Origin: Asterias amurensis
Lineage: Eukaryota > Echinodermata > Asteroidea > Forcipulatida > Asteriidae
Length of the DNA: 64,000 nt
Direction of reading: 5' to 3'
NCBI RefSeq assembly: GCF_032118995.1
Contig: NC_092662.1
Span: 15,451,701-15,515,700, forward strand
Shown: positions 6,553 through 50,300 of the stretch, in pieces
Position numbering within the stretch: position 1 is the first letter of the stretch
Layout: every line of letters begins with the position of its first letter
The notes under the pieces: model-generated
What the model was told of the DNA's origin: nothing
Database searches by the model: none
The model's input: the letters and a program-made list of their open reading frames with translations, nothing else
Program-made: the position numbers and the translations under genes

Positions 6553-9500
6553 TTAATTAGTCGCAGACATTACGAAAATGATTATGTTCACGAAAAAGCC
6601 GCCGACATACAAAACAAACCCAAGCATATCGAGACGATGTGCAATCCTCTTCCAGTTAGTGGCGACTGTTTCCTGTCGAAGAAAACGAAAACAAAAAAAT
6701 GCAAACAGTTTTAAGGGCAACCATTATACAAACCTAAAATCATTTCAAAGAGCCATTAGGGCGGACAAATATATCTTTCTTTTTTCTAGATTTTAGTGTG
6801 AAAGACGGATACTTAAGTGAAGTTTCCAATTTCACTCAAAAAGAATGACAGAGATTGACTTTCAATCTTAAAAGAGCGAAACTGACGCCACATTAATAAG
6901 AGTAAAATGTTCACTCAAAAGAGAGTGGTGCTATAATAGGTGCCTGGGACACTTCTTACCTTTTTAAGGTACGAAGTGTCCCATGCAGGGAGTGGCCACT
7001 CAGTGTATTTGCCACTTTGCCTACAGTGTACCTTTGCCACTCCCTGATGGGACACTTCGTACCTTTTTAAGGTACGACGAAGTGTCCCAGGGAGTGGCAA
7101 AGGTACGAAGTGTCCGACATCCCTGTATATGTATTTTGTTTGTTCACCTTTGATATCTCATCTTCCAAAGCGTCTCCATCACGCCCCAAGTCGTAATTGT
7201 TCTCTTCTTGTGAGATCGTACTGCCGAGATTCACACAAAAAACTTTGTTGTTGTTCTTCTTCTTCTCGGGGACCTCCCAGTTGTGTAAGATGAGCGTCAC
7301 GGCAGTCAACAGCACAGAGCAACCACACAAGAAGAAGTTAATGACAATGAAAGACAGCGCGGCCGGAGGCTCCCCGTTGCCGCCTTCCGGAAGCGCTTCC
7401 TGGACCAGCGTCTGAAACACCACGAAGCCTAAAAGTAAAGACACGCCAAAGGAAAGCTTCTCACCGCAGTCCGGCGGAAGCCAAAAGATGGCGGCTGCGA
7501 TGATGCCCAGCAAGGCGGATGGACCTATCACTGAATATGTATACGCCACCCATTCGCGTTGGAGAGATATACTTATCCTGATATCGATTGTAAACATGCA
7601 TCTTGGATCACCAATCACAGGTGATGTTACCCACTCGACTGATGTAACATCTGAGTGGTCTACCTCGAAATTGGCGCATTTTAATTTGAATGGTTCGATT
7701 GTTACGTCAAGCAGCTTCCAATCATTAACAATGTTGAGCTGGTAGTCCTTAGTCAGGCGAGGTAACAACCTCACCAGGGAATCGGGTGTGGTTGTGAGTC
7801 CAACTAATACATCACAAGTTTGACTATCGAACGGGAATTTACCCTGCTTTAAGAAACAGGATGAGTGATACTCGATCATGTTCATCGTGTTCACCTTACC
7901 GTTGTACATGAGCAAGGATTCTGTCGAATCTCCGATAACTCCAATTCGTGCACCACTATCGTGAAAAAAAAGACATAACCAAAGACTTCAAAAAACTTTC
8001 AGGCTTCTTCAGGTTAATAATTAATAGAGAGGTTTAGCTGCACGTTCGCGAGCATAATAATACGTTTTTAACATAGGAAAGTTACATTTTCCACTTCAGG
8101 TACGTACATGTGCACGCGTACGTGGGCATGAAATCGGCCCAAAGTGAGGACGTCACACAACACAATTTGTTTACGTTTACGTTCAACCTCCCTAAATGAC
8201 TGTATAATAATACGCAAACTTGAATAGCTGAATACACTTTTTTGTTACAGTAGGCCTACTGCAATACCAAATTATTACTATACATTATTAGTATCTTACA
8301 AACTTGCTTAGTAACGCGCAACAGAGAGCTGTTGATAGTATAACACGTATTGTGAGAAACAACGGCTCCCTCTGAAGTAACGTAGTTTTTGAGAAAGAGG
8401 TAGTTTCTCAGTCAGATATTAAAAGAAAGCACATACAGTTTGGGCAACAACGATGTTTTTCTTTCACTATTTTCTTGCAACTTCAATGACCAATTGAGTT
8501 CAAATGTTCACAGATTGTTGTTTTATGCATGGGGTGGCCTGTCTTTGAAAATATTACCAAAGGAGTGGATTTCACAAAGACTATAGTCTTATCTCGAGTA
8601 AGAACAAGTTACTTGTCCTATCTTAGGACTAGCCATACGTTTTTAATATCTCCTAGGACTAGTCCTAAGTTAGGACTTGGCCCAACTCTTTGTGAAATCG
8701 ACCCCAGTGTCTTTAAATGCACTGGCAGGACACGTTACGTAATTATTAACGTACCGCGCCTCGATCCGGCTTGGCCCGTTAACAGCGGCCAACCACCAAC
8801 CCGGATATTACCACGGAATGGAGACCGGTGTGGCGGTTTCAGTCTTCCGCCGTGTTCAGTTTTCCGGGTGACGGAGTCGGACATATCAGCACGTTGTTCG
8901 AACGGTTTAAGCTTTCCTGCATGTTCAGTTTTCCGGGTGACCTGTCAGATACCGCCGCGAGTACCCTGGCGAGTACTGTAGTTCTCTCAGCAGTGACCCC
9001 AAATTGTTTATATTACGATTCTTTCCTGTGTAGTCACATAATCTCTTGCCCCATCTTTACATGTATTCATGGGTACAACTTTAGGCAGGTCACACTCTGC
9101 TTGCATAAAAAACCAACTCATACGATCCACGCGCCATGACAGCTACCGGGGGGGGGGGGGGGGGGGGGTCACGGATGACTCAATACGCCACTAAAAATGG
9201 ACTACTTTCGCTTGCTGTGCGCAGGCATCGCATGACGTAATGCTACCGTATTTGGTCATTCGGAAAACTGAACACAGCGGAAAGTTGAAACCGCCACACC
9301 GGTCATGAACACGTAGTGGAGACCGGAACATCACTTAGTCCCTAATCATTATTGAGCACCAAAATGTTGCAAATTAAACAAAATATACAATAATGTGAAT
9401 ACATACTCTTTGCGCATGATCAGTCTGGGGTACCATATCTCATTTGTGTTCACGATCATGTACTCAACACCACCGTAGTCGTCAGGGTTCCAGCTCAGTC

Positions 9501-21589: not shown

Positions 21590-22812
21590 ATAATTATCTC
21601 GGAGCCTTCTCGAGTTGCCATCATCAAGGCATCACCGCTCATCAAAGAGGGGTACAGGGCACCGAGTAGATCTGAACCACGACAATGTGCTTAGTTTAGG
21701 AATTTTGTCAAATGAAATTGATTTATTATAATTAAAAAGCATTTCTTCAAACAGTGTTGCCGCTTTGACATTCACATTGCTCCGTGAGAAGTTCAAAATT
21801 AATAGTCTTTAACGGAAATTGTTTTTCATGATGTTTGCATAGCTGGATTGCATAGCTGGATTGTCCAGGATATGAAACCTTTTTTTGGCACCGTCTTTCA
21901 TATACAATCTCAACAAGGAAATTTGATTTTTTTTAAACGTCTGTGAATTATTAAGAGAAAGCCAAGAAAAAAACAAAACATTATTATTGGCATTAGCCTT
22001 GTATATAGAGGAATAAAATTGGCAACTAGCCTATGTTATTTTAAGTGACAACAAATGTTAAGTTTCAAATGGACGTTTGAATTATAAAAAAGGGGTGAAG
22101 GTTTAAACAAAAGTTTCGTAACTCCTTTTTTAAGTGAGTTTGTCATACAATAGTTTCTTCTCTGAACTTGGAGCTCTGAAATTGAAAAAAAAAACATTTC
22201 CAAAGACAAAAACAAATTTTAATCGAGTAAACTGTCCATTAATTGTAAATTCCATAGATTCTTCTCAAACCCACCAACCGCTCAAGAGAGATCTATTTAA
22301 AAGTGAGTGTTACTATACTCCAAATTTCGTATGTTTAGTACATTTCCACCATGCAAACCTTCAATACAAACTTCAAGGCTTATAAATTGTCTAGTTAATT
22401 GAGATTTCCTTCGATTTCACATCTTAAGATTCACTTCTCAAAAATAGTGTGAATTAATATTTTATAAAATAAGTTAGGAAGTTTCTTATTGGCTACTTTC
22501 TTTGATGGGGTTTGCGTGATGAATATTAAAACATGTTCTTGTATGTATTTCTTTTACATATATAGTTTTACATATCTTGTATTTTATTTTGTATCTTCTC
22601 AGTGTTTTTGGAGGTTTTGTGGAAATAAATAAATAAACAAATAACACTGTATGGTTTCCCTAACTTGTCCGTGCTGACAATAACACACTGGTGTTTGATT
22701 TGTGTGTTTGATTATCCATCCCATGTAGTTTTGCTTTGAGGAAGTAATCACAGTTATAGTGTATTGTATAATATTACCGAATCAATAACTTCTATTGTTC
22801 TTGAGTTTCACC
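21590..22812. other. AT-rich intergenic stretch, nothing recognised
   Basis: No supported exon, repeat family or RNA was identified between the family D copy and the foldback element. Confidence 0.5.
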
Positions 22813-22818
22813 CAAAAC

Positions 22819-23713
22819 TATGGTGGCCCTGAAGGGACATCGCATATCGCAAACATGTGCGCATACGTATGCAATGTCGTAAAACAATTCGCAAATATGT
22901 GCGCACACGAATGCAATGTCGTGAAACAAATCGCGAATATGTGCGCACACGTATGCAATGTCGTGAAACAATTCGCAAATATGTGCGCACACGTATGCAA
23001 TGTCGTGAAACAATTCGCGAATATGTGCGCACACGTATGCAATGTCGTGAAACAATTCGCGAATATGTGCGCACACGTCTCCGAATATTATTTGCGATGT
23101 CGTGAATTTTATTGCATACCATGTTGCATACCTTTGAATAAAATGTCTAATGATCTGGGGGGTTTCTTTCCAACAGTGAGATAAGCGGTCGTCATTGCAG
23201 CAGTAGTCTTTGTTGTGAGGCAAGCGAGGCGTGTGGTCGTCCTTGGCCTGGTGCCAAGTTCCTGGGTATACACATGCTTTACAGAGGGAGCCTGCTGTAG
23301 CGCCACAGTACTCCCTAGATCGGTAACAAATTATCCACAACTATGACATCATCCTAATGGTATGCAACATGGTATGCAATAAAATTCACGACATTGCAAA
23401 ACAAATCGCACTCGTGTGCGCACATATTCACGATTTGGTTCACGAAATTGCATACGTGTGCGCACATATTCACGATTTGGTTCACGAGATTGCATACGTG
23501 TGCGCACATATTCGCGATTTGTTTCACGACATTGCATACGTGTGCGCACATATTCGCGAATTGTTTTACGACATTGCATACGTGTGCGCACATATTCGCG
23601 AATTGTTTCACGATATTGTATACGTGTGCGCATATATTCGCGATTTGTTTCACGACATTGCATACGTGTGCGCACACGTTTGCGTTATGCGATGTCCCTT
23701 CGGGGCCACCATA
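22819..23713. mobile_element. Foldback element with 42-bp tandem repeats in its arms
   Basis: The 895-bp element begins TATGGTGGCCCTGAAGGGAC and ends GTCCCTTCGGGGCCACCATA, flanked by a 6-bp direct repeat CAAAAC (22813-22818 and 23714-23719). Each arm holds about six units of a 42-bp repeat containing GTGCGCACACGTATGCAATG and CGTGAAACAATTCGCGAATA. The arrays are inverted relative to each other. The central 23110-23360 part is unique. This layout resembles FB/Galileo-type foldback transposons. Because 42 is a multiple of three, several frames stay open, but no real protein is indicated. Confidence 0.85.
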
Positions 23714-24078
23714 CAAAACCAAAAAACATCAGAGTTTCCGCACTTATGTTCAGAAGTTCACCCAGGGATAGATTTCACAAACAGACAAGATTGATCACTA
23801 GAGTGCAATTCACACGACAGAAATTTAACTGGGGTCCTTTGCTTAATTATAGCATGGTTGTAAAAGGTTAGCAATGCCTTGACAAGATTTTGCAAGAAAA
23901 CTTGGACAGTAGAACACATTGTTGTCTTTTCACACGAGATAAACTTATTGTAAAAATGTACATCTAGGCCTATGCTACAATTTAACAAGGGACACATGCT
24001 AAGTTGCTCTCGTCTGAAAAGCCCTTTTTGTGGGGGTGACGGCGCATTACAAATAACTGCCAATAATGGCAAATCATC

Positions 24079-27352: not shown

Positions 27353-30300
27353 ATGTCATCGTCATCCGTCAGTGCAGCAGCCATCATCATTGTTGTCACT
27401 GTCACTGTGTCGTTGTCACCGATTGTGTCATCGGGTAACCAACTTAATGAGCCACAGCACAATGACTATGACAGGTCATGTTTTGTCCCTCCTTCCCAAC
27501 ACGACGACTCAAAGCCGGTAAATATTACATCAATATTCTCTAACTCTTTAAACTTTTTTTGGCTAATGGACCGTAAACGAGGCAACGGAAGCGATTGCCT
27601 CAAAGTACCCTGCCGTCGATTTCGCCAAACTCTTCATAACTTATTATTAATATTAAAGCCATTATACACTTTCGGTAAACAGTATTGTCCAAGTCCCACA
27701 CTTCGTGTATCACAACTTATATATAAAATAACAAACCTCTGAAAATTTAGGTTCATGCGGTCATCGAAGTCGGGAGAAAACAACGGGAAAACCCATTCTT
27801 GTTTCCGCGCGTTTCGCCGTGTCATGAAATGTGCTTAAAATAAATCCGTTATTCTCGCTAACGAGAATTTATATTGTTTTAATGTTTCTCAAAAAGTAAA
27901 GCATTTCATGGAACAATATTTCAAGAGAAGTCTTTTACCATTACCTTCTGTAAACCCTGTAAATTATTTGTAAATCTGTGAACTTTAATTTTTTCTGTAC
28001 CGAAAGTGTATAATGGCTTTAAAGGCAGTGATGGACACTATTGGTAATTACTCAACATAATTATAACCATAAAACCGTTGGAACGAGTACATGGGGAGCT
28101 GATTGATGGTATAAAACTCTGTGAGAAACGGCTCCCTCTGAAGTAACGTAGTTTCGAGAAAGCATTAATTTTCCACGAATTTGATTTCGAGACCTCAAAA
28201 TTAGACTTTGAAATCAAGCATCTGAAATCATTACAATTTTCCTCATCAAGCCTACATCCGTATGGACTGTAAAGGGGTTAACCCTGTTTCAGCCCTAGGA
28301 ATAGGTGTCTACGGCCTCTGGAAAAAATAATTGTAGCCCACACCTTGAAGTGGCCTTCAGGCCTTGTGTGTCAGGCGACTTGCATAACACAAAAAAGAGG
28401 TTTCGGTACCCTTTTTAAAGGAGAAAATGCCCTGGTGCCCTATACGTGCCCTTTCAAACACGAAGCACGACAGGCTTGGTATGATAATATTTATCAGGGC
28501 TAACGAGCGCTGAACAGATTCAACCCGGAAATGGAGCGAAAATCAAGGTTTCAGCTCTGCAGCCAAAATGAAAGGGAATAAGCCATTTGCGAGTTAGATT
28601 TGAATAATTGCTGGTGCAATTATGACTTGTTTATAGTCACAAGAAACCGCTTACATTTGAATTGTTCAGACTATAGAGACCGTTGCTATGTCAAATGACG
28701 TTGGCAAGCTTTTGTATAGCAACCGCCAGAAGAGCTGACCCTAACCATTGTGAGTTGTGACCTATGGGACAATGGATGGACACATTGACGCGGTAACGTT
28801 TTTCAGATACAAATGTTGGGGCATAGCCCTGTAACCACTCTTCATAAATTGAAATGTTTCTCAAAAGGCTTTTCAAATGCTGCTGTATGCTTCTTAGTGC
28901 CATGAATGTTAAAGACAGTGGACACTATTGGTAATTGTCAAAGACTCGTCTTCACAGTTGGTGTATCTCAACATAAGCATAAAATAACAAACCTGTGAAT
29001 TTTTAGCTCAATCGATCGTCGAATTTGCGATATAATAATGAAAGAAAAAACACCCTTGTCACACGAAGTTGTGTGCTTTCTGATGCTTGATTTCGAGACC
29101 TCAAATTCTAAGCTTGAGGTCTCGAAATCAAATTCGTGGAAAATTACTTCTGTCTCGAAACTACGTCATTTCAGAGGGAGCTGTTTCTCACAATGTTTTA
29201 TACCATCAACATCTCCCCATTACTTGTAATCAAGTTTTATGATGATAAATATTTTGAGTAATTACCAATAGTTTCCACTGCCTTTAAGATTCAAACCTAT
29301 ACCAATTCCCTTTATAAGACGAGTTCTTTTGTTGGTGTTTGTTCCAACAGTTTTTGTCCACAGACATTTCTTATCCCCGTATGGACCCACAACAGCAATA
29401 TGTCTTTCAGGACTATGAAATATTGGCAATTCCTAATGGGACATGTAAGTATATTTACCGTACACACACATTATACATACATAGGCCTGTCAGCATGGGT
29501 CGATTTCACAAAGGTAGTCCTAACTTAGGACTAGTCCTAAGCAACGCTAAGAGATAGGACTGGTCCTAAGTTAGGACCAGTAACTGATCCTTACTTAGGA
29601 CTGGTCCTATCTCTTAGTATTGCCTAGGACTGGTCCTAAGTTAGGACTACCTTTGTCAAATCCACCCTAGTGCCTTTTTCTTAAGGTTAACGCCTATAAC
29701 AGAAGGTGCAACAAAAAGTCCGAACTCAAGATGCTCCTATGTAAAATCAAATAAAACAATATTTCTGTGTAATAATTCGTCTTACGTACAGCTTTTGTAA
29801 TTGTCCAAGTGTAGTTGTATGACGAAGATGTGATGGTAATAAGTTCCATACATTTTGGAGCAGCATCAGAAAATGTACGTTCGCAGCTCGTATGTTCGGC
29901 CAAGAGGTTCTCTGAGGAAGAGCGTAGGGAACGCGGTTGTACGTAATACTATTGATGATGTACCGTGGTTGAGTTTTAAAAATCTCAGCAAGTTTCCGAA
30001 CACCCTATTTTGTCGCGTGTCGTGGCCGAATGGTTAAGAACACCAGACTCAAGCTCTGGTGTTTCTGGTCAGTAGCGTGTGGGTTCAGGTCCCATTCATA
30101 CCGCCTGTGCCTTTGAGCAATATTTAACACACATTGCTTTGTCCTTCGGGTGGGACATTAAGCCAAAGGTCCCGTGTACTGGGATTGGTAGTGTACGTTA
30201 AACACTTATCGTGGAAGAGTAGGTGTTTCTGGTTTATTGCAAGCACCCGTAATTTACCAGGTCAATCCATCAATCTCGGTAATGTGCGCATGCTCGTAAC

Positions 30301-33300
30301 TACGCAATGGAAATTTACCTGGTGAGTCTGCTGCCACCTAGCGTTCATAAAACGTCCATTATAATTTAGACTCCGATGGGTCTGTTCTTGTTTTGCATTG
30401 TAACAGGTGGACTTGATGTGTATTACTGCAATTACAATTTATGGTTAGCACCAGAATACAAGAACGTCATACAACAAGTGGAACAGCTGCTTACTCAAAC
30501 TTGTTTAGTCTCACCTGAAACAAGCTGGTACATAAAGGTCCTCACAACAGGTTTGTTTTTTTTATTTAAAACACGGTATGAGCAAAAAACAAAACAAAAA
30601 AAAACAAACTATAAAGTCAAACTTTGGTCATGACCCCGAAACATGTAACTTTTGAGTCGAAAGCCTACTTGTTATAAAGATGATACATGACAGTTGCTAT
30701 GTCAAATGACCCGGGAATGCTTTTGTATAGCAACATCCAGAAGAGCACCCCTCTGATTTATTGGAACCTTGCCCAATTTCATAGAGCTGCTAAGCACAAA
30801 CATTTGCTTAGCATGACATTTCTGCCTCGATAAAAACTGCATATAACCATGCAACAACATTTCCACATGATGTTCAGGATGAGCTGAATAACAAGCAATA
30901 TGCAACAAATGGCAATTTGGATGGAAATCCTGTTTTTGTCCAGGAAGAAATTTCATGCCACACACCGGGGTCGACCCAGGGGAGCTAAACGAACGCACCC
31001 TACACGTACATCTTCATTTGCGTGGCAGTGTGTAGGTATTCATGTCGTGGCCCAAAACCTGATCTACAAAAGGTATCAAATCCCTTCATTAACGTAAAAG
31101 TAGTTATGATTTTCCCCTTTTCTTTTACACACAGGAAGACATTATGTTAATCATGGAAACAGTGTAAAACTTGTACCAGACGAGGAGTTGCGTCATCTGC
31201 CGCCCGAGTGGTTGCACGGTCTTACCATTCAAATGCACATTGACCATTTCCCAGCTACATCACTGACGTATCGCTGCGACGTAGCTCTCTTAAAAAGACT
31301 CCCAAACGAAAAGTACAACCTGAACATGACTGCACAACTTAATGGTTAGACTTGTGGACAAGTCGTTAAATCGACCCCACGCGCTGAGATAGTCGAGTTG
31401 TGGCGGAGCTCTCTCGCGAGATCACTGCTCTCGCGCGAACTGATGGCTCCCCGATTTCTACTCCTAGGAGCCATCAGTTCGCGCGAGAGCAGTGATCTCG
31501 CGAGAGCTCCGCCACAACTCGACTATCTCAGCGCGTGGAGCCGATTTAATGACTTGTCCACAAGTCTACTTAATGGTAACTATTTGTAGTTAAATAGTTT
31601 ACATGTATTTGTCGAGAAAGAAATAACTTGTAAAGGACATAGATCAAAATAATGGAATTGCTCTTTTCGCAGCGCCCCCCCCCCAAAAAAAACCAGCTAC
31701 ATGTACATCAATAAATTGAAATATTATATCAACATAGGTACTCTAATGAACCTGCCACTAATTCTATCTTTTTAAAGGGAGGATACTATGTTTCGTAACC
31801 GCTCTTAAAATTAATGGCAATAATTATATATATAAAAAAATGGTTAGGAGTACAGCAGATTTCGATAGAGCATTTGGAGAATAATTTAACTTAAAAGTTA
31901 TGGACAATAAGGTTTTCTGACAGGTCATCGGAGGGTTAAATGTGGTGATGTACTTTTATTACTCTCCACAGGTTGCCCATCAGGCCGATATGGGGGCAAA
32001 TGTGACCAAACATGTTCCTGTATTCAGGGAGTTGAGTGCCATAGCTTCAATGGGATCTGTATGTGTCCCCCTGGACTTGAAGGAACGCGTTGTGAACACA
32101 GTAAGTACATCCAAAGACTTAGGCCGTGTCCGAATTAGCGGCTACAGCTACGGCTACGGCTAGATGTCCGCGTCATCATGCTTTACTTTGAGGTATAGGA
32201 CGTCCTTAGCAACACATTTAGCAACAACCGTAGCCGGAGCTGTAGACGCCGATTCGGGTACGGCTTATATAAACCCACACACAAACTGTTACTCTTATTT
32301 CATTTCATTTATTCAGTGCCAAATGTAGAGCTGCTTAAGCAGCTATTATAACTATTGCTTAAACAATGTTCTGTTCAGCACAAACGCGCACTGGATACCA
32401 GTCACTATTTGTAACTGTCACTAGGCAGTTTGGGTGGTGACCTTGTTCTGGTAAGCGTCGTTTTGTTTTGTTGAGCTACTGTATGCGTTGAAGCAGAAAT
32501 TGTGAGTGAAGCCAATGACTCCTATAAAAGCCTTACGCCCTACCAGCCATGACCCAAAACTTGAGAGAAGACAAAGAAAGGAAGTTTATGTTTAGATGTG
32601 GGAGGAAAAACCACAACTATTTATTCCAGGAAAAACCGCACACAGTCTGATAGGGACAACACCCTGGCGGACACCCTGGCGGACACCCTGGCGGACACCC
32701 TGGCAGAAGCGTCCAATAGGGTTAACGGGTCCGAGAACCCACGTATCATGTTCCCGGCGTGATTCGAACTGGGGTCATAGAGGTGAAAGGCGAAGATACC
32801 ACTACACCAACCCAATCCTTATTATCAGTTATAAATGAACCCTTTAAAAGAAAGCAATGCATGTATTGTATTGGTATAAGTTTAATATTACAGCCAGTTG
32901 TTTAGATTCAATGATATGACGGGGTCTTTAGATCCACATCATCCCCAGACTGGTTTGTTATTCATTCCCGAAGAAATTAGGATACTCATATCAAAGTTGC
33001 TGGTATTTCCTCGATACTTGATAATTTGAAATAAAAACACATGTTTTCTGATTGACCTGTACATCTGACGTCACACTTCGAGGCTCGTGAATTGTGCCAG
33101 ATACCAGTCTTGCGCTTATGTCCGGATTCGTACATGGAGATTCGCAGTCGAATCCTACATAGACCTGTGTATAAAACAACGCTACATGCCCATTCGTGAC
33201 GTCGTCAAACATTATGCTCATCACCTCAAACCAAATGTAACACAGATATGTAAAGCTTCGTCACTGCATGTTTATCAAATGACGTCATCGTACCCAATGA

Positions 33301-36300
33301 AATCAACGGGCCCGTAAAGACCAGCGACTATAACTGCGGAAAAAGACAGGAGACCACTCCAGTCTTGTAACAACAAAATGTTTTTAAACTAACATGTGCA
33401 TGTGCTTTCTACTGTCATTCCATTTGTACCATATAGTTTACCCTAGACTCAGTGTACAACAGCAACATGTTTATGTACCGTATGGAACATCATACAACCT
33501 AACCTGTAATGGAGACGGGATGATACCTGCAAACTTTTCTTGGATCAAAGAGAGTACATCAACGCGCCTAGTCACTGAATCCAGAGAGAAAGCAGTCCCT
33601 TATAAACCAAGGTAGTCTAATCCTTCAAGGTTCTTAAAGACATGCGCGAGGAAGATCAATAAGCTTAATAAATATCCTTTGTGACTCTGACAACTTACAC
33701 AAAAAAGAACATCAGAGAGTGGTTGGGTGATGACAATCCAACATTGCAATAGTTACAAACGAAAAATCTTTTCCTGATCAATTTCAACATAAATCCACTT
33801 TTATCAACTCATTGGGTTTTAAAACAAGATTGTCAAAGTGTTTTGAGGATTATTTGATTACAAACTCCAATACTCTGTTAAACAATATGTTTTTGAATTT
33901 TGCTTTTACAATATAGCCCTGTTGTTTTTACAAGCACATTGGAAGTTAACAGCACAACCGTCAATGGTGGATATCTTTGCGAAGTCTATGACGGAAATGG
34001 AACAGAGTACAGGCAATATGTGAACGTCACCGTCATAGGTATTATAATGTCTAAATATAATAATGTTATTGGGTTCTTATATATAGCGCTCTACCAAAAC
34101 CGATGGGCGCATCAAAGCGCTTAGTATTTTTCCTGCATATATGGAGCTACGTTTTTTTTATTGTTTTTTTTTTAAGTATGACTATTGAGACCTACTCCTT
34201 TATATCACCAGGTAACGGTTTACGAGGTGATGTGGCGCAATATGCTGCCAATCAGACCAGGAACACGAGGGCAAGCCAATTTTTTTACGATACGTGCCCT
34301 GAGTTCGTTTTGTTACACACACGAAGGAAAGGGCAATATTGGCCACTTGCTTAAGGACACAATAGTGCCACGACCATTTTACACTTAGAACCCATCTCAT
34401 TGGCTGATGTTCCTTCACTCGGGTTGAGTACTTGTGGTAGCCACATTTCTCATATAATTATCTCAATATTATTACAAGCATTTTATTGCTCATTTTGTTA
34501 AGTTATTTTTATATTTGACAGCCGTCCCAGATCCCTTCATGCAAGTTCCTCAGAACCAAACCGCCCTCATCGACAGGAATGTTGTCTTCACATGTAAGAC
34601 CAAGAAGGCAGCTGGGACCATCAAATGGGTCAAAGGTCACAACCCACCATCCTCAGAGATCAAGGATGATGTTGGCCATTACGGGGTACGCCATCTCTCT
34701 GATGGTGTTTCTGAACTTCATATCTATGGTGTACAATTCTCACATGAGGATGTGTACAGATGCTATGTTGGGTTCACCTTCAAGGAACCAGACTTGAACT
34801 ATGCAGAGGCAAAGCTTATTGTCCAATGTGAGTTTTGTATACATTTCACTAGCTCTAAATTAAGATCAATGAGTACTCTTAGTTTTGCAGGAAATATCGT
34901 ATGAAAAATCACTTCAACTGACATGACTTCACGGAACTAAAAAGACTAAAACAACTTGCATGACTTTTGCAATATGACTTGTAGACGAAACCATTGAAAT
35001 CGAAACTGATTCGTTTGATTTCTCGATTAGAGTATCTTTACATTAAGGAAACATGAAACCTGGGGTGTCGTTTTACTTTCAGTTTTATATTTGTTTTCCA
35101 TGTCATTAAAGATGTTTGTTTATGGCATTAAAGGTGTTTGTTGTATGTTTTTGTTTTGTTTTGTTTTTTAAATGCGATCGATGAAATGAATAATTGAATA
35201 AGTTTCTTGAATTTCCCCTCAAGCTGATCCCCAGCCTAAGTGTTCCTTCCAAGACGTGGTGAATGCCACATCGGGTCAGGAGGTGACCCTTTGGTGCCAG
35301 ATGGAGAAAGTCAAACCGGCTCCATCACTGACTTGGTCCGTAGAGGGCCGACAAATCACCCCGCAACCCACAACAGTCACCACTCTATCAGATGATCAGT
35401 ATTCATTTGATGTCAACACCACGATGACCTTTGACCCTGCCCCTGAAGATGATGGACGGAGAGTCTCTGTTGCCATGGAAAGCCCAGCTTGGGAGGGGAG
35501 TAGAGAAATGTCAACCTCTTTGAATGTACAGTGTAAGTTTGGTTTAGAAAAGAATATGAAGTACAGTGTGGCACACATCACTGAGAAGGGCTTCTGATTA
35601 ATGGACATTGGATTCATCGGTAATTACCTGAAATAATTCAGGTCAATAATAATAATAATAATATCGAAGTCTTATATAGCGCACGTATCTACCAAACAAG
35701 GTACTCAAGGCGCTGAGTATATACAAACTTTCAGAAAGATAGGTTATTGCAGTGATGAATTCTGAGACCCAATTATTTAGCACCTTATAAGGGTTTACAA
35801 GGTGATACGGCGCATTAAGCAGCCACAACCAGGAACACCGGGGCGAACCCCTTCTCTTTTCGATAAGTGCACTGGGTTCTTTTACATGCGTTACACAACA
35901 CATGGGACCAACGGCTTTACGTCCCATCCGAAGGACGAAGCAATGGTTAAGTGTCTTGCTCAAGGACACAGTGTCACGATACACCTATGTGAATTTCACG
36001 GAACCACAAAATATTTCGATGTAACAAAAATATTTTGATGTAAGAAAATTAATGATTTTGAGGAAACTTAATAGTGTTTCACTTTTTCAGGGAACGAAGT
36101 AATTTTGACATTTTGTTAACCTTTTCTCTATTTTGTTTTTACCTTTTTCCATTGTTTGTACCTGTCCTTACCCTGTAGGGTCTCCGTAAGAACTTGAAAA
36201 CAAAACTGCAAACACAATTTGACTCATTGTAAGCTGAACCAGCAACAGGTTTTATTTTTTACTTCATCAAATTAACAGATGCACCCATTGTGGAGATCAA

Positions 36301-38497
36301 TCCAGACCCAATCTCGCTTGCCTCAGGACAGGATGCTGTCATCTCCTGTTTGACCAAAGCCAACCCACGTCCAACCAGCTACGACTGGATCCTCAGTCGA
36401 CCTGACAAAACACCACAGATTGATTCCTCGACAGGTGACACCTACCATCTTATGAATATTGATATGACCTATGACCTGGCAAGCTTGACCTGTAGAGCTG
36501 GGAATGAGGTTGGGGAGACGAATGATACAGTGAGGATGAAAGTGACAGGTGAGGATTTAAGAGAAGGAAGTAGTCTGTAATTAGTGCTCAATGTTCCTTG
36601 AAATTCTCCTCTTGATCTTGATCTTTAGATATTGAGATGTGGATTAGTCGTGTGTTTTGGACGCAGCAGATAATTTTACAAGAACTTCATGAAACTTTGA
36701 GTTGAGAGTCTGTGATCCTGGCGGCGGAGTATATAGCTGGTTCCAGTCTCTTGCCGTGTGGGGACAATTTCTTCTGCAAGTGGTCCCTGGGCCGTGGGTT
36801 TCTCTTCTGAATGTTATCTTATTTTCTTGTGTTTTTTGTGTGTTTGCTTTCAAGAGAATGGCTTCACACCGGCTGCAACTACGGCATTCTCCGTCTTGGG
36901 AGGAATGTGCCTCTTGGTGTTGGTCGTCTCAAGTGTTCTAGTTTATTGTTTCCGTAAAGAAGTTATCCTCTGGTGGTCTGCAAAGACTGGCAAGAATAAA
37001 GGTAAGAGTTCACAGCTTGTCCGAAGTGGTTGTGGGGTTTATATAGCTAAGCATGCAAGAAATCAATCAATCAATCAATCAACAATCCATCCATATATCA
37101 GAAGTCATTTATGTAGCGCCCGCAGAGTCAACAGAAATTGTTCAAAGGCGCTCAAGACATGCAGTTACATGAAATTAATTACAATGCACTTGTGGAAAAA
37201 GATAAAATTTAGCAGTTTCTGAGCATATACTTGATGTGATTTACAAGAGTGTTCCATTCTTCTGGTCCATAATGAACTTGCGGGTACAAACATGTGTAAA
37301 ACTCTGTTGTGTGGTTGGCTCTGAAAAGAGCCGGTTGGGTCTCGACGTTTCAAACAGTATACTCTTCTCTTCTTCAGGAGAGTTTATTTCTGTTATGATT
37401 TTGATTCAGATGACAAAGACTTTGACGTCTTCATCTCGTACAAGAGTGGAACACCCGATGAAGAGTTTGTTGTCCAGGAGCTCATTCCAAGATTAGAGCA
37501 AGATGGTTACCGTGTCTGTGTCCATTTTCGATTCTTCTTGCCAGGGAGAAGTAAGTAGAACCAAGTTTCCTTAAAGCAACATCTATTAAAGTCACTAGAC
37601 ACATTTATAATTACTCCAAAATAATTGTTAGCATAATATAAAAACTTACTTGGTAACGAGCAAAGGATAGCTGTTGGAGATAAAACATTGTGAGAAACGG
37701 CTTCCTCTGACTTGAGTAACGTAGTTATCTACAAAGAGATAATATCTTTCTTCCTTAAAAGACTTCAAGCCTGAAGCATTTTAAGGCACCTGCAAGCAAA
37801 CAAGACGTGCAACAGGGCCGGGCGTGTTTTTTCCTTTCATTTTTCTCTTGCAACTTCGATGACCAACATTGAGTCCAAATTACCACAGATTTGTTATTGG
37901 ATGCATAATGTTGGGATACGTGAGAATACTGGTCTTTGACAATATTACCTAATTGTCCAATCTCTTAAAGAAGCATGATGCTAAGATGTTGACACTTGAA
38001 GATGTATTTCAAATTTCTTGTTTCCGACAGGTATCATCGACAACATCTCTGATGCAGTTCGTCGGTCCCGCAAGACTCTTCTCCTCCTGACCCCTGGCTT
38101 TGTCGAGAGCGAATGGTGTCGATATGAATTTCAAGCAGCTCTCCTTCAGATGCTGCGCCGTCAAATGGACATCATCCCGGTCATCTTTGAGGATCTCGGT
38201 AACCCGGCAAACCTCTCCGAAGACATCCAGACCGTCCTCCGTTCTCTCTCCTACATCACCTGGCCCGGTGCCGTCTTGGACGGCAGGGGTCCGCAGAGGG
38301 AGGGCGACAATGATCGGTTCTGGAAACTGCTTTGGGAATCCTTGCCCGACAACCCCCTGGGATTGGAAGAGCAGCTGCCTGATTTGGACGGGATGGGAGA
38401 AGATGAAGTTGACACTGAAGGAAATGAAGATGTAAAAGTTGACGAAAATGCAATGTTACTAGTGATTAATGTCGAAGAACAAGTTGACAGGGAATGA
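27353..38497 (+). CDS. Type I membrane receptor: EGF-like, four Ig domains, TM and TIR domain
   Basis: Thirteen exons with matching phases encode 901 residues: 27353-27517, 29351-29444, 30407-30550, 31135-31344, 31972-32100, 33437-33611, 33917-34038, 34522-34827, 35224-35532, 36279-36548, 36855-37001, 37383-37550 and 38031-38497. Order: signal peptide (about 1-30); an unrecognised Cys-containing N-terminal region; an eight-cysteine laminin/Tie-type EGF module (205-247); Ig domains at 248-347, 348-449, 449-551 and 552-641; TM helix (about 650-672); TIR domain (703-855); acidic tail. TIR marks are box 1 DFDVFISYK, box 2 FRFFLPG (the usual RD acidic residue is F, proline 744 kept), SEWCRYE, and box 3 FW at 843-844. 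IL-1R/SIGIRR receptors share Ig plus TIR but lack EGF. Likely an innate or developmental signalling receptor using MyD88-type adaptors (inference). The exon 1 join is the least certain. Confidence 0.86.
27653..28022. mobile_element. Family C TTAA MITE, copy 1
   Basis: TTAAAGCCATTATACACTTT on the left and AAAGTGTATAATGGCTTTAA on the right, 370 bp, in intron 1 of the TIR receptor. A central inverted TTCTCGCTAACGAGAA motif is visible. Its right TTAA is shared with the following family A fragment. Confidence 0.8.
28019..28232. mobile_element. Family A MITE, 3'-truncated copy
   Basis: TTAAAGGCAGTGATGGACAC through GATTTCGAGACCTCAAAATT, then the copy stops within its central hairpin. It abuts family C copy 1 and is followed by a SINE-like fragment (28240-28390). 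Confidence 0.7.
28240..28390. mobile_element. SINE-like fragment, type 3
   Basis: GGACTGTAAAGGGGTTAACCC, CAGCCCTAGG and CCTTGAAGTGGCCTTC match the body of the elements at 47510-47790 and, inverted, 61190-61440. Confidence 0.5.
28909..29287 (-). mobile_element. Family A TTAA MITE, reverse orientation
   Basis: TTAAAGACAGTGGACACTAT to AGTTTCCACTGCCTTTAA with central hairpin. It ends 64 bp before the acceptor of TIR-receptor exon 2. Confidence 0.8.
29497..29669. mobile_element. Family E palindromic element, copy 2
   Basis: Ends GGGTCGATTTCACAAAGG and CTTTGTCAAATCCACCC enclose a run of TTAGGACTAGTCCTAAG and GGACTGGTCCTA palindromes. It starts about 50 bp into intron 2 of the TIR receptor. Confidence 0.7.
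29700..29905 (-). mobile_element. LINE reverse-transcriptase tail fragment
   Basis: The minus strand reads ERTFSDAAPKCMELI, a decayed form of the RTFxxxAPxLWNxLP block at the end of LINE reverse transcriptases. Confidence 0.5.
30017..30130 (+). mobile_element. tRNA-Leu-derived SINE head, partial
   Basis: GTGGCCGAATGGTTAAGAAC (box A) and GGGTTCAGGTCCC (box B), with an ACTCAAGCTCT anticodon-like loop, followed by part of the SINE body (CTTCGGGTGGGACATTAAGCC). A decayed relative of the full SINE at 53047-53457. Confidence 0.65.
30245..30345. mobile_element. Family J palindrome relic
   Basis: TTTACCTGGTGAGTCTGCTGC and upstream TTTACCAGGTCAA match the centre of the larger palindrome at 50766-51120. 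Confidence 0.5.
30772..30972. mobile_element. Family D element fragment
   Basis: GCCCAATTTCATAGAGCTGCT and CATTTGCTTAGCATGAC inside intron 3 of the TIR receptor. The right end is not clean. Confidence 0.5.
31338..31577. mobile_element. Family F foldback MITE at the exon 4 splice donor of the TIR receptor
   Basis: The element proper is 31347-31568 (222 bp). Ends are TAGACTTGTGGACAAGTC and GACTTGTCCACAAGTCTA, and the interior is a near-perfect palindrome around CTCCTAGGAG. It is flanked by a 9-bp direct repeat CTTAATGGT (31338-31346 and 31569-31577), as expected for Mutator-like mobilisation. The duplicated bases include the exon-intron junction, so two candidate donors now exist. Confidence 0.88.
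31345..31350 (+). promoter_or_regulatory. Splice donor (upstream copy) GTTAGA of TIR-receptor exon 4
   Basis: Using this donor keeps the reading frame (phase 1) into the EGF exon at 31972. The competing copy GTAACT at 31576-31581 is closer to the donor consensus. Its use would add 231 nt, beginning with an in-frame TAG straight after the junction codon. Confidence 0.6.
32120..32268. mobile_element. Family G palindromic element, copy 1
   Basis: GGCCGTGTCCGAATTAGCGGC on the left, inverted as GCCGATTCGGGTACGGCTT on the right, with GCTACGGCTACGGCTAG and CCGTAGCCGGAGCTGTAG arms. It starts 20 bp past the EGF exon donor. Confidence 0.65.
32590..32830. mobile_element. SINE-like element, type 4, with a 12-bp minisatellite
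   Basis: GATGTGGGAGGAAAAACC, TTATTCCAGG and a reverse tRNA-like GTGATTCGAACTGGGGTC segment match the element at 54915-55110. Four tandem ACACCCTGGCGG units lie at 32661-32703. Confidence 0.6.
34055..34390 (-). mobile_element. Leu-SINE body relic, minus orientation
   Basis: TATATAGCGCTCTACC, GAGACCTACTCC, GTTTACGAGGTGATGTGGCG and CTTGCTTAAGGACAC follow the order of the full SINE in reverse. Intron 7 of the TIR receptor. Confidence 0.6.
35645..35982 (-). mobile_element. Leu-SINE, minus orientation, 5'-truncated
   Basis: A reversed tail (AAT)n at 35644-35662 followed by the body nearly identical to 53130-53450 in reverse complement, ending in GTGTCACGAT. The tRNA-like head is missing. The high identity suggests recent SINE activity. 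Intron 9 of the TIR receptor. Confidence 0.85.
37271..37382. mobile_element. Family H fragment carrying the acceptor of the first TIR exon
   Basis: GAACTTGCGGGTACAAACATG, GGCTCTGAAAAGAGCCGG and GGTCTCGACGTTTCAAACAG follow the arm of the family H palindrome at 11270-11480. The fragment continues through a CTCTTCTCTTCTTCAGGAGAG tract. The only phase-compatible acceptor for exon 12 is the AG at 37381-37382. Confidence 0.65.
37586..37968. mobile_element. Family A TTAA MITE in the intron splitting the TIR domain
   Basis: TTAAAGTCACTAGACACATT to TTGTCCAATCTCTTAA, diverged subtype with an ACTTCAAGCCTGAAG centre. It fills most of the 480-bp intron between the two TIR exons. Confidence 0.75.
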
Positions 38498-38813: not shown

Positions 38814-38819
38814 AATAAA
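38814..38819 (+). other. Candidate polyadenylation signal AATAAA for the TIR receptor
   Basis: First AATAAA after the stop codon at 38497. Sequence motif only. Confidence 0.3.
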
Positions 38820-38944
38820 AATAGATAGATAAATAAACATTAATTTTTATAAGATCTGAAATGGAGCTCAAATATATATTAGTGTGCGTGTAAATAGAAA
38901 CACAGATTTCTAAATATTGAGTAATACTAAACTGTTTAAATTTT

Positions 38945-47300: not shown

Positions 47301-50300
47301 AACGGTCTAGTTTTTTTCAATTCAATTTATTAAGGTTTATTAAAAATATCACAAAATACACGACAGAAGTTAAAAAGACTTAAATTGGCGTGTTTACATT
47401 CATTATTGTTAACAATGACAAAAAAACAAAAAACACAGACTTAAAAGAAGAGAAGAAATGCTCCAGACATGAATGCACAAAAAAAGATAAAAACTTGATT
47501 AGTTCACTCTGGTGTTGTCAGCAGCAGAGAGTGGGTACGATCATCGGTCATGACACTTGTTCCCTTGAGCAAGGCACTTAAAACCATAATTGTTTTGTAA
47601 TTAGTTGGGAAGGTAGTGCGTTCTGCTCTACCAGCCAGGCTTCTAGTGGATGATACCCATACCTACGGACTGTGAAGGGGGGTAACCCTGTTACAGCCCC
47701 AGGGAAAGGTTGCATCGTGCCCTTGGTGGCAGTTGATTTGGGCTATGTAGCCCTAACCTTGAAGTGGCCTTCCGACCTTGAGATGATATACGTTCTCTAT
47801 TTTTTATGACGTTGTATACATCGTGATGGTATTAGAATTAACACAACTCAATGTATTTTATATATAACCACCAATTTAAAGCATAACTGGAAACGCGAAT
47901 GGAGGAAGAATCTTGATTCAATGATTCCATTTTCAATTTTTCTCACAGACAACTTAAACCTCAAATAATCTGATTTTGTTTCAGGAGAAGCGGATGTCAT
48001 CCCATGACAGCAAGATCCTTGGGAAGCAGCGAGAGTTGCTTTTACAGAAACTGGAGGATTTTGAGCGGACTAACTCAACACTAAGACAAATGTTACGGGA
48101 CCAGCACAAATCAGAGGTAACTTAAGCGTATCAATGAAAATTGTGCACCCTACAATGTAGTAATAATAATACTTATTATCCCTAGGGGCGTATCAAGCGC
48201 TCAGTATTATTTCCTGCAAGGTATGTGAAGCTACTTATTGAGGTACGAGACCTATTCCTTAATAGCACCATGGAATGGTTTACAAGAGTGTTGTGGCGCA
48301 ATATGCTGCCAATGTATGTAGTTGAGTTCTGGGAGAGGTTTACAGTTTCATCAGGTAGTGTTCAGTACGATGTAAAAGTGATTTGTTTTGTAAGAAAGAT
48401 ATTACAAATGGTTTACCTCTGTTAAAGGCAAAACGTGAACAGACGCAAGAACAGCGTGACGTACTTCTACGTAAGCTCACCCAATCGGACGCGGACAATC
48501 AACGCTTCCGTATGCTCACCCTGGAGAAAGAACAAGAAATTCAAATGTTAAAGGTACTGTACATCATCATTATTTGTCTCTAAAATAATATCAACATGCT
48601 CTTCAATAATATCAACATGCTCTTCAATAATATCAACATGCTCTTCAATAATATCAACATGCTCTTCAATAATATCAACATGCTCTTCAATAATATCAAC
48701 ATGCTCTTCAATAATATCAACATGCTCTTCAATAATATCAACATGCTCTTCAATAATATCAACATGCTCTTCAATAATATCAACATGCTCTTCAATAATA
48801 TCAACATGCTCTTCAATAATATCAACATGCTCTTCAATAATATCAACATGCTCTTCAATAATATCAACATGCTCTTCAATAATATCAACATGCTCTTCAA
48901 TAATATCAACATGCTCTTCAATAATATCAACATGCTCTTCAATAATATCAACATGCTCTTCAATAATATCAACATGCTCTTCAATAATATCAACATAACA
49001 AATTTTTGGTAACACCATGTCTGGCCTTGAGCTTTGCTCGCGAAGGAGCACAGCAACCAAAACAACCTATGGTAGAAAGGAAACAAAAAGTTCATGGCCG
49101 GATGTTTTGACCCTCAGACAGCCGAGAAAGACTATGCTCGGGTTGAAACGTCGAGCCATTAACAATTTCAGTTCAAGTCCATTAGCCCCTATATCGATTG
49201 GCAACTCCATCAATGTTGTACTATAAAATTCTTCTGAAAGGATTCACTAGTGTCAGAGAGGGAGCAACTGCAATCCATGACCGACCTCCAGACCTCTGTT
49301 TCCGCCACACGAGGGCATCTGCAAAACCAGCTGCGTAAACGGGAGGGTGACTGCAACCGAATGGCCGTGCAGCTGCGCAAGATGGAGAACCAGCTAGAGC
49401 AGCAGCAGATTGAGGTTGATCACGCGCAGGGATTGTTGGGTGCAGCGAAGGAGAAGGCGGCATCGGATAAAGAGGCACTGAAGAGAGCCACAAGGTACAG
49501 GGTCATATCATTGGTTATTGATTATTGTTGTTTCACCCGTCTTGCTGGGGCTATTTGAGCAAATTGTCAATCAAAATATCCATACACCCTGATCAGGGTG
49601 TGTGGATATTTTTATTCAGAGTGCTCAGTGTCACCATAAGATTCGTTTAATAAGAATTATGTATAGTCTTGAGTGTATCTACCAATGAGGTACTCAAAGT
49701 GCCTGAACGAACGAACAAACAAACATTTTGAGACAGGTTTTTAAATTTGTTTTAATTATGAGAACAATTTATATCGCAGCTTACAAGAGTTTACAAGGTA
49801 CTGCGGCACACTCAGCAGCTACTGCCAGAAACATTGGGGCGAAATTCTTATTTTAGCGAAAAGTGAAACTGTGTTCATTTATGTGCTTTATATTACACAT
49901 AAACTAGGGCTTTACATCCCATCAACAACAGGCGCTGCTGATAAACAAACTGGGCTTGAGTCAAGTACTCTTACTGCTCAGCCACCACAGAGGTTGTTTA
50001 TTTCCCAGAAGATGGTAACAAAATTACTAATGAATTATGCTAGCTTAGGCACAAGCTTTTGATTCACGGATATGAGTTGGTATGTCTTTGAAGGTCCATA
50101 TCGAGCAAGTTTGATTAATTTGTTTGCCTTTTCGACAATTCTTTGTCGCCCTGAAAAAACACGACAGGGTGCAGAAAGATCGAGCCACACGCAGCGAAGA
50201 CGCCGTGGAGAAAATGAACATGCAGCTGTTGGAGAAAGAGACGCAGCTTGCAGATTCTGCCATGGTTATGGATCAGTGGAAAGCTAAAGCAGAGAAGTCC

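Follow-up and report, generated by a model that had tools for sequence, protein, structure and literature searches.

Analysis of a 64,000-nt stretch of the Asterias amurensis genome (GCF_032118995.1, contig NC_092662.1, positions 15,451,701-15,515,700 of the forward strand, labelled C15:15451701-15515700), hereafter the window, revealed what by its sequence is a real starfish gene for a single-pass receptor, one of three paralogues found. The predicted protein contained, in order, a signal-peptide-like start, about 175 residues with no assigned family (the head), an EGF module, four Ig domains, a membrane span and a TIR domain; the signal peptide and the membrane span were judged by eye. The first-pass annotation had placed an EGF module, four Ig domains and a TIR domain in one phase-consistent receptor gene, and this layout was recovered by Pfam, the cysteine count and the splice model together. 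The three genes are read as a real gene family of unusual layout, a variant of the Ig-TIR kind, and the window gene as a candidate immune receptor. It probably acts as an IL-1R-like (Ig-TIR) immune receptor, in which the head and the EGF/Ig1 region would read a ligand and the TIR domain would recruit a MyD88-type adaptor.

The gene was rebuilt from splice signals, and all positions within it are given in the numbering of the window. It spans 27353-38497 on the plus strand in 13 exons, and all 12 introns had GT-AG borders in the splice-signal model. The exon phases (0,0,1,1,1,1,2,1,1,1,1,1,1) were consistent, leaving the frame open from the ATG at 27353 to the stop codon ending at 38497, which bears out the thirteen phase-consistent exons first proposed. 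Exon 1 (27353-27517) contained the start codon, the signal-peptide-like stretch and the beginning of the N-terminal region (residues 1-55), and exon 2 (29351-29444) continued that region (residues 56-87). The N-terminal domain followed in exon 3 (30407-30550), which had no Pfam match, and its second half in exon 4 (31135-31344). The single eight-cysteine EGF module (residues 205-248) was encoded by exon 5 (31972-32100, phase 1-1). Ig1 was divided between exon 6 (33437-33611, first half) and exon 7 (33917-34038, second half), while Ig2, Ig3 and Ig4 each had one exon (exon 8, 34522-34827; exon 9, 35224-35532; exon 10, 36279-36548). Exon 11 (36855-37001), conserved in the paralogues, encoded the membrane span (residues 652-674, by eye) followed by RK. 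The first part of the TIR domain, with box 1 and the BB loop, lay in exon 12 (37410-37550), and the second part in exon 13 (38031-38497) together with an acidic tail and the stop codon. Two polyadenylation-signal hexamers (38814-38837, plus strand) were found downstream of the stop codon.

The junction of exons 1 and 2 allowed three in-frame variants of 892 (model A), 906 (model B) and 901 (model C) residues. An exon 2 start at 29351, giving 892 residues, was favoured because a CCAACAG acceptor at the corresponding place, with unchanged phase, opens exon 2 of a paralogue on contig C18. On the same ground the 906-residue variant, in which exon 1 runs to 27572 and exon 2 starts at 29364, and the 901-residue variant (exon 2 starting at 29324) were set aside. 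The latter is the model of the first-pass annotation; it exists as an in-frame variant, but the paralogue supports the shorter protein.

Other features of the window were also observed. A motif like GGACACTATTGGTAATTACT recurred in both orientations near 28030, 28917, 29250, 37590 and 38710 (by eye), in introns of the gene and just outside it, and is perhaps a dispersed repeat. A neighbouring gene was represented by a 306-aa open frame on the minus strand (7067-7987) with Pfam matches to the ligand-binding and transmembrane parts of neurotransmitter-gated ion channels. Short repeats that were open in several frames occurred at 22789-23871 and at 48548-49066, the second with a repeated VDIIEEH.

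The domain search proposed with the first-pass annotation was run with Pfam, which identified four Ig_3 stretches, with 84.5 bits over the full-length protein, and a TIR domain at residues 695-841 (75.1 bits). All of these were above the cut-offs and were found again in both paralogues. At the EGF exon, where eight cysteines were counted by eye, Pfam gave only a sub-threshold EGF_laminin match (11.0 bits; cut-off, 21). No Pfam family was matched in residues 1-200, in agreement with the initial remark that about the first 200 residues have no recognised family, and the head was likewise unmatched in the paralogue scans. Alignment of the head with hhalign to the receptor's own Ig domains and to Ig and FN3 pieces of starfish Tie gave no signal, in a comparison where two Ig-Ig controls were also weak. 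A likeness of the head to CatSper-gamma, seen with a two-row profile against the PDB (2 sequences, best E 0.064), was weak and was treated as chance.

The whole genome (491.5 Mb, 23 contigs) was searched with two halves of the window protein. A paralogue on the minus strand of C18 contained all 13 exons of the window gene, a homologous exon 1 among them, with order and phases unchanged, and these exons encode 875 residues without a stop. Identity between the two copies was 0.62-0.90 in the exons and 0.44-0.67 in the 80-base flanks, against a baseline of 200 random pairs with a mean of 0.50 and a maximum of 0.64 (the downstream flank of exon 4 was taken to the right of a transposon described below). 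Only 2 of the 26 flanks, those upstream of exons 1 and 10, exceeded the baseline maximum. Identity thus fell at the modelled exon borders, and by these alignments the recurrence of the exons on C18 is not due to chance. Near 20-34 kb on C15, a third and divergent copy contained the EGF module, four Ig domains, the membrane span and the TIR domain, its Ig3 and its Ig4 each being split by an additional intron. Pieces like exon 1 and exon 4 were present in this copy, together with an exon 3-like stretch without a GT donor.

These copies bear on whether two neighbouring genes, a secreted one made of exons 1-5 and a receptor gene made of exons 6-13, had been fused in error by the first-pass annotation. 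The EGF exon and the phase-1 junction between exons 5 and 6 were kept in all three copies, which argues against such a fusion. The exon order was kept on another contig, no stop ended exon 5, and exon 6 had neither a start nor a signal peptide (by eye). Two fused neighbours are hence a most improbable explanation.

The window and C18 proteins were 71% identical, with a dN/dS of 0.31 over 868 aligned codons (Nei-Gojobori, custom script). Because dS differed widely between exons, from 0.26 (Ig4) and 0.29 (Ig2) to 1.0 (EGF), with 0.53 to 1.0 in the parts other than Ig2 and Ig4, gene conversion is possible and the dN/dS values by part are only rough: 0.12 for EGF, 0.13 for TIR, 0.19 for Ig3, 0.23 for Ig2, 0.27 for the exon of the membrane span, 0.34 for Ig1, 0.35 for exon 1, 0.40 for the tail, 0.50 for Ig4 and 0.55 for the head (exons 2-4). 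The low dS of exons 8 and 10 is as gene conversion between the window and C18 copies could give. The head also had the highest dN between the two copies (0.44) and an identity of 43%, compared with 88% for the TIR domain. The fast divergence of the head fits ligand reading, and relaxed constraint too.

The donor of exon 4 was found to be occupied by a transposon. A MITE-like palindromic hairpin element of 222 bases (31347-31568), recognised by its dispersed copies and its hairpin fold, was flanked on the plus strand by two copies of a 9-bp target-site duplication, CTTAATGGT. The left copy (31338-31346) covers the exon 4 donor, and the right copy (31569-31577) forms a second one. Since the element and its duplication sit exactly on the donor, each duplicate carries a GT donor, ATG|GTTAGA on the left and ATG|GTAACT on the right; the C18 gene has ATG|GTAATT. 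The insert and one duplicate amount to 231 bases and are in frame, and reading through them meets a TAG directly after ...AQLNG. A search with 31354-31566 gave at least 82 match rows genome-wide from the best 40 of 643 candidates, and most sites of the element appear on both strands because it is a palindrome. The RNA fold of 31325-31595 had an energy of -212.7 kcal/mol (z -27.6). Use of the left donor would give the receptor, and use of the right donor a head-only product, presumably secreted, that counts about 205 residues with its signal peptide.

The transposon interrupts the exon 4 donor, so the window allele may be mis-spliced. It could be losing its function and yielding mostly truncated protein, with the C18 gene as the working copy. 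The overlap of the duplication with the donor, the immediate TAG beyond it, the strong fold of the region and the dispersal of the element family all speak for such a loss. Set against them, an in-frame GT donor is still present at 31344, the frame is open through all 13 exons, and the dN/dS to the C18 copy is 0.31, though that value is averaged over time before the insertion. Loss of function in the window allele is judged rather unlikely.

The first-pass annotation had further proposed that domain shuffling joined a Tie-like ectodomain to MyD88-type signalling. Against the PDB, the EGF module matched Tie2 best (31.1 bits for the chain; 21.3 and 21.4 bits for EGF1 and EGF3 singly), followed by SCARF1 (24.0 bits for the chain). 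Within the starfish genome, it matched a multi-EGF protein on C5, MEGF/SCARF-like by eye, with 36.4 bits, compared with 29.3 and 27.2 bits for the Tie EGFs. As the C5 match exceeds the Tie matches, the module appears to be of a widespread type. A starfish Tie-type gene was located on C13 at 18.81-18.85 Mb (18810001-18850000), where an Ig_Tie2_1 match (36.8 bits, Pfam) was followed by an Ig domain, EGFs, a further Ig domain, FN3 domains, a membrane span and kinase exons (by eye). A second Tie-like locus on C13 near 19.52 Mb (19515001-19555000) had an Ig_Tie2_1 match of 24.8 bits, and its domain sets were apparently repeated. Neither C13 locus was among the best 132 of 954 candidates of a kinase search at E 1e-15.

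Compared with Tie, the window receptor has one EGF rather than three, placed before all the Ig domains, and a TIR domain where Tie has a kinase. Neither Ig_Tie2_1 nor FN3 was listed by Pfam in the three receptor copies, the third of which was scanned in part. An ectodomain taken from a Tie receptor and joined to a TIR domain would account for Tie2 being the best PDB match of the module and for the phase 1-1 exon of starfish Tie EGF1 (by eye). The same origin is at odds with the closer match to the C5 protein, with the single EGF, the other domain order and the missing Ig_Tie2_1 and FN3, and with the matches of exons 1-4 in the Tie loci, which were at chance level only (E 0.27 or worse). The module is, on its sequence, of the Tie/SCARF/MEGF kind, in an ectodomain otherwise without Tie-like parts found. 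Derivation of the receptor from Tie thus appears unlikely, and in the specific form of an ectodomain taken over from Tie it is very unlikely. Of the earlier proposal, the joining of EGF, Ig and TIR in one gene is supported, and the symmetric phase 1-1 exons fit exon shuffling; the Tie-like ectodomain is not supported.

A three-row TIR profile of the receptor family scored highest with TLR1 (91.4 bits), TLR6 (86.8), TLR15/2 (86.7), TLR10 (75.5) and TLR2 (74.3). Matches to IL-1RAP (66.1 bits), SIGIRR (53.1) and IL-18RAP (51.2) were also obtained. By score, the TIR domain appears nearer to TLR1/2/6/10 than to the IL-1R members, as a similarity ranking and not as phylogeny. In a tree of 13 TIR rows, with no IL-1R rows, none of the 10 inner branches was starred and the branches were long. 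Residues invariant in all three copies included F-I-Y-K, a Pro-Gly in what we take to be the BB loop, a W-C at the presumed middle box, and the final F-W. Recruitment of MyD88 by this domain is plausible, the conserved BB-loop Pro-Gly being compatible with it only.

The receptor could instead serve as a SIGIRR-like brake or decoy that absorbs ligand or TIR adaptors and does not signal. SIGIRR was among the profile matches, and the right-hand exon 4 donor would yield a secreted head-only protein. The strong purifying selection on the TIR domain (dN/dS 0.13), its top scores with the TIR domains of signalling TLRs and the retained BB-loop Pro-Gly are on the opposite side, and a role as brake or decoy is considered unlikely. 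Signalling by the window receptor is likely. For the immune receptor favoured here, the head with the EGF/Ig1 region would, on coelomocyte or epithelial surfaces, bind a ligand that is either a protein or microbial, and the Ig2-Ig4 stalk would position two or more chains. Ligand-driven pairing would then bring the TIR domains together, and the conserved Pro-Gly of their BB loops might let the clustered domains recruit a MyD88-type adaptor and switch on NF-kB. The steps of clustering, TIR-TIR contact, MyD88 and NF-kB are taken from how TIR receptors generally behave.

A total of 21 PF01582 matches were found in the genome, of which 3 were the window receptor family. At 12 of the 18 other loci, no Ig domain was seen in the longest frames of 2.5 to 4 kb stretches, a search that Ig domains on distant exons would escape. 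Pfam on 4 of these 12 loci showed two LRR-TIR and two TPR-TIR proteins. The genome-wide Ig_3 search covered 150 of 913 candidates. A cluster of TIR genes at C15:3.40-3.46 Mb had open frames near 800 aa, and the one scanned with Pfam contained TPR and TIR_2. A Death domain followed by TIR_2 was seen at C9:19775502-19776447 and at C12:9359872-9361380; this TIR_2 is of another type, unlike the TIR of the window receptors, and the two genes are not claimed as MyD88. No gene of the genome was identified as a canonical MyD88, which weighs against the mechanism favoured here. In Pycnopodia helianthoides with wasting disease, the available text of one study lists Myd88, TRAF6 and NF-kB contigs among the differentially expressed genes of coelomocytes (PMC4503460).

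The family offers a testable example of a TIR domain gaining a new sensor, as its three genes carry an EGF module and an unassigned head. With a transposon seated on its exon 4 donor, the window gene offers a natural test of splice-switch evolution. Beck et al., known to us through reference lists, reportedly described an 'IL-1 receptor' on Asterias coelomocytes; any link between it and the window family is speculation, and the family provides genes for the old question in the title of that work. Under a bolder reading, the family would form a class of receptors not described before, whose head, fast-evolving and of new fold, is carried on an EGF-Ig stalk and senses for the TIR domain. The same reading would equate this class with the Asterias coelomocyte 'IL-1 receptor' and take the window transposon as a splice switch between membrane receptor and secreted head decoy. 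This combined reading is regarded as distinctly unlikely.

Among known systems, Toll-like receptors have the closest TIR domain by profile score, and the window receptor differs from them in having no leucine-rich repeats, as no LRR match was given by Pfam on the window protein. With Tie2/TEK, it shares the type of eight-cysteine EGF module and the presence of Ig domains; it differs in having one EGF, no Ig_Tie2_1, no FN3 and a TIR domain instead of a kinase, and the Tie-type genes lie apart from it, on C13. With the vertebrate IL-1 receptor family (IL-1R1, IL-1RAP, IL-1RAPL, SIGIRR), it shares an Ig ectodomain, one membrane span and a cytoplasmic TIR domain. In that family, the ectodomain is made up solely of Ig domains, one to three in number. 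The window receptor has the TIR domain after one span, but its ectodomain has four Ig domains, an EGF module and about 175 unassigned residues, and its TIR domain scores nearer to TLR1/2/6/10 than to IL-1R. Members of the IL-1 receptor family with three Ig domains and with one are named in the accessible part of PMC9020223.

All features of the invertebrate Ig-TIR (IL-1R-like) architectural class, namely several Ig domains, a span and a C-terminal TIR domain, were present in the window receptor. The available passages of one study regard cnidarian Ig-TIR (IL-1R-like) proteins as not orthologous to vertebrate IL-1R and hypothesise an independent origin of the combination in cnidarians and vertebrates (PMC5094078), and those of a 2025 paper (PMC12108812) mention IL-1R-like orthologues for Cnidaria, Protostomia and Deuterostomia alike. 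In the portion consulted of an amphioxus study (PMC2575513), the number of TIR combinations is put at about six for sea urchin and at 28 for amphioxus, and Ig-TIR is noted in sea urchin by SMART definitions. Echinoderm Ig-TIR receptors are therefore not new in themselves. No echinoderm EGF-Ig-TIR protein was found in the accessible portions of the open-licence literature searched, and annotated database entries may exist. In the excerpts available for oyster (PMC4346834) and Aplysia (PMC9334734), IG-TIR and EGF-TIR are given as separate classes, whereas the window receptor would unite both in one chain and add a further head domain.
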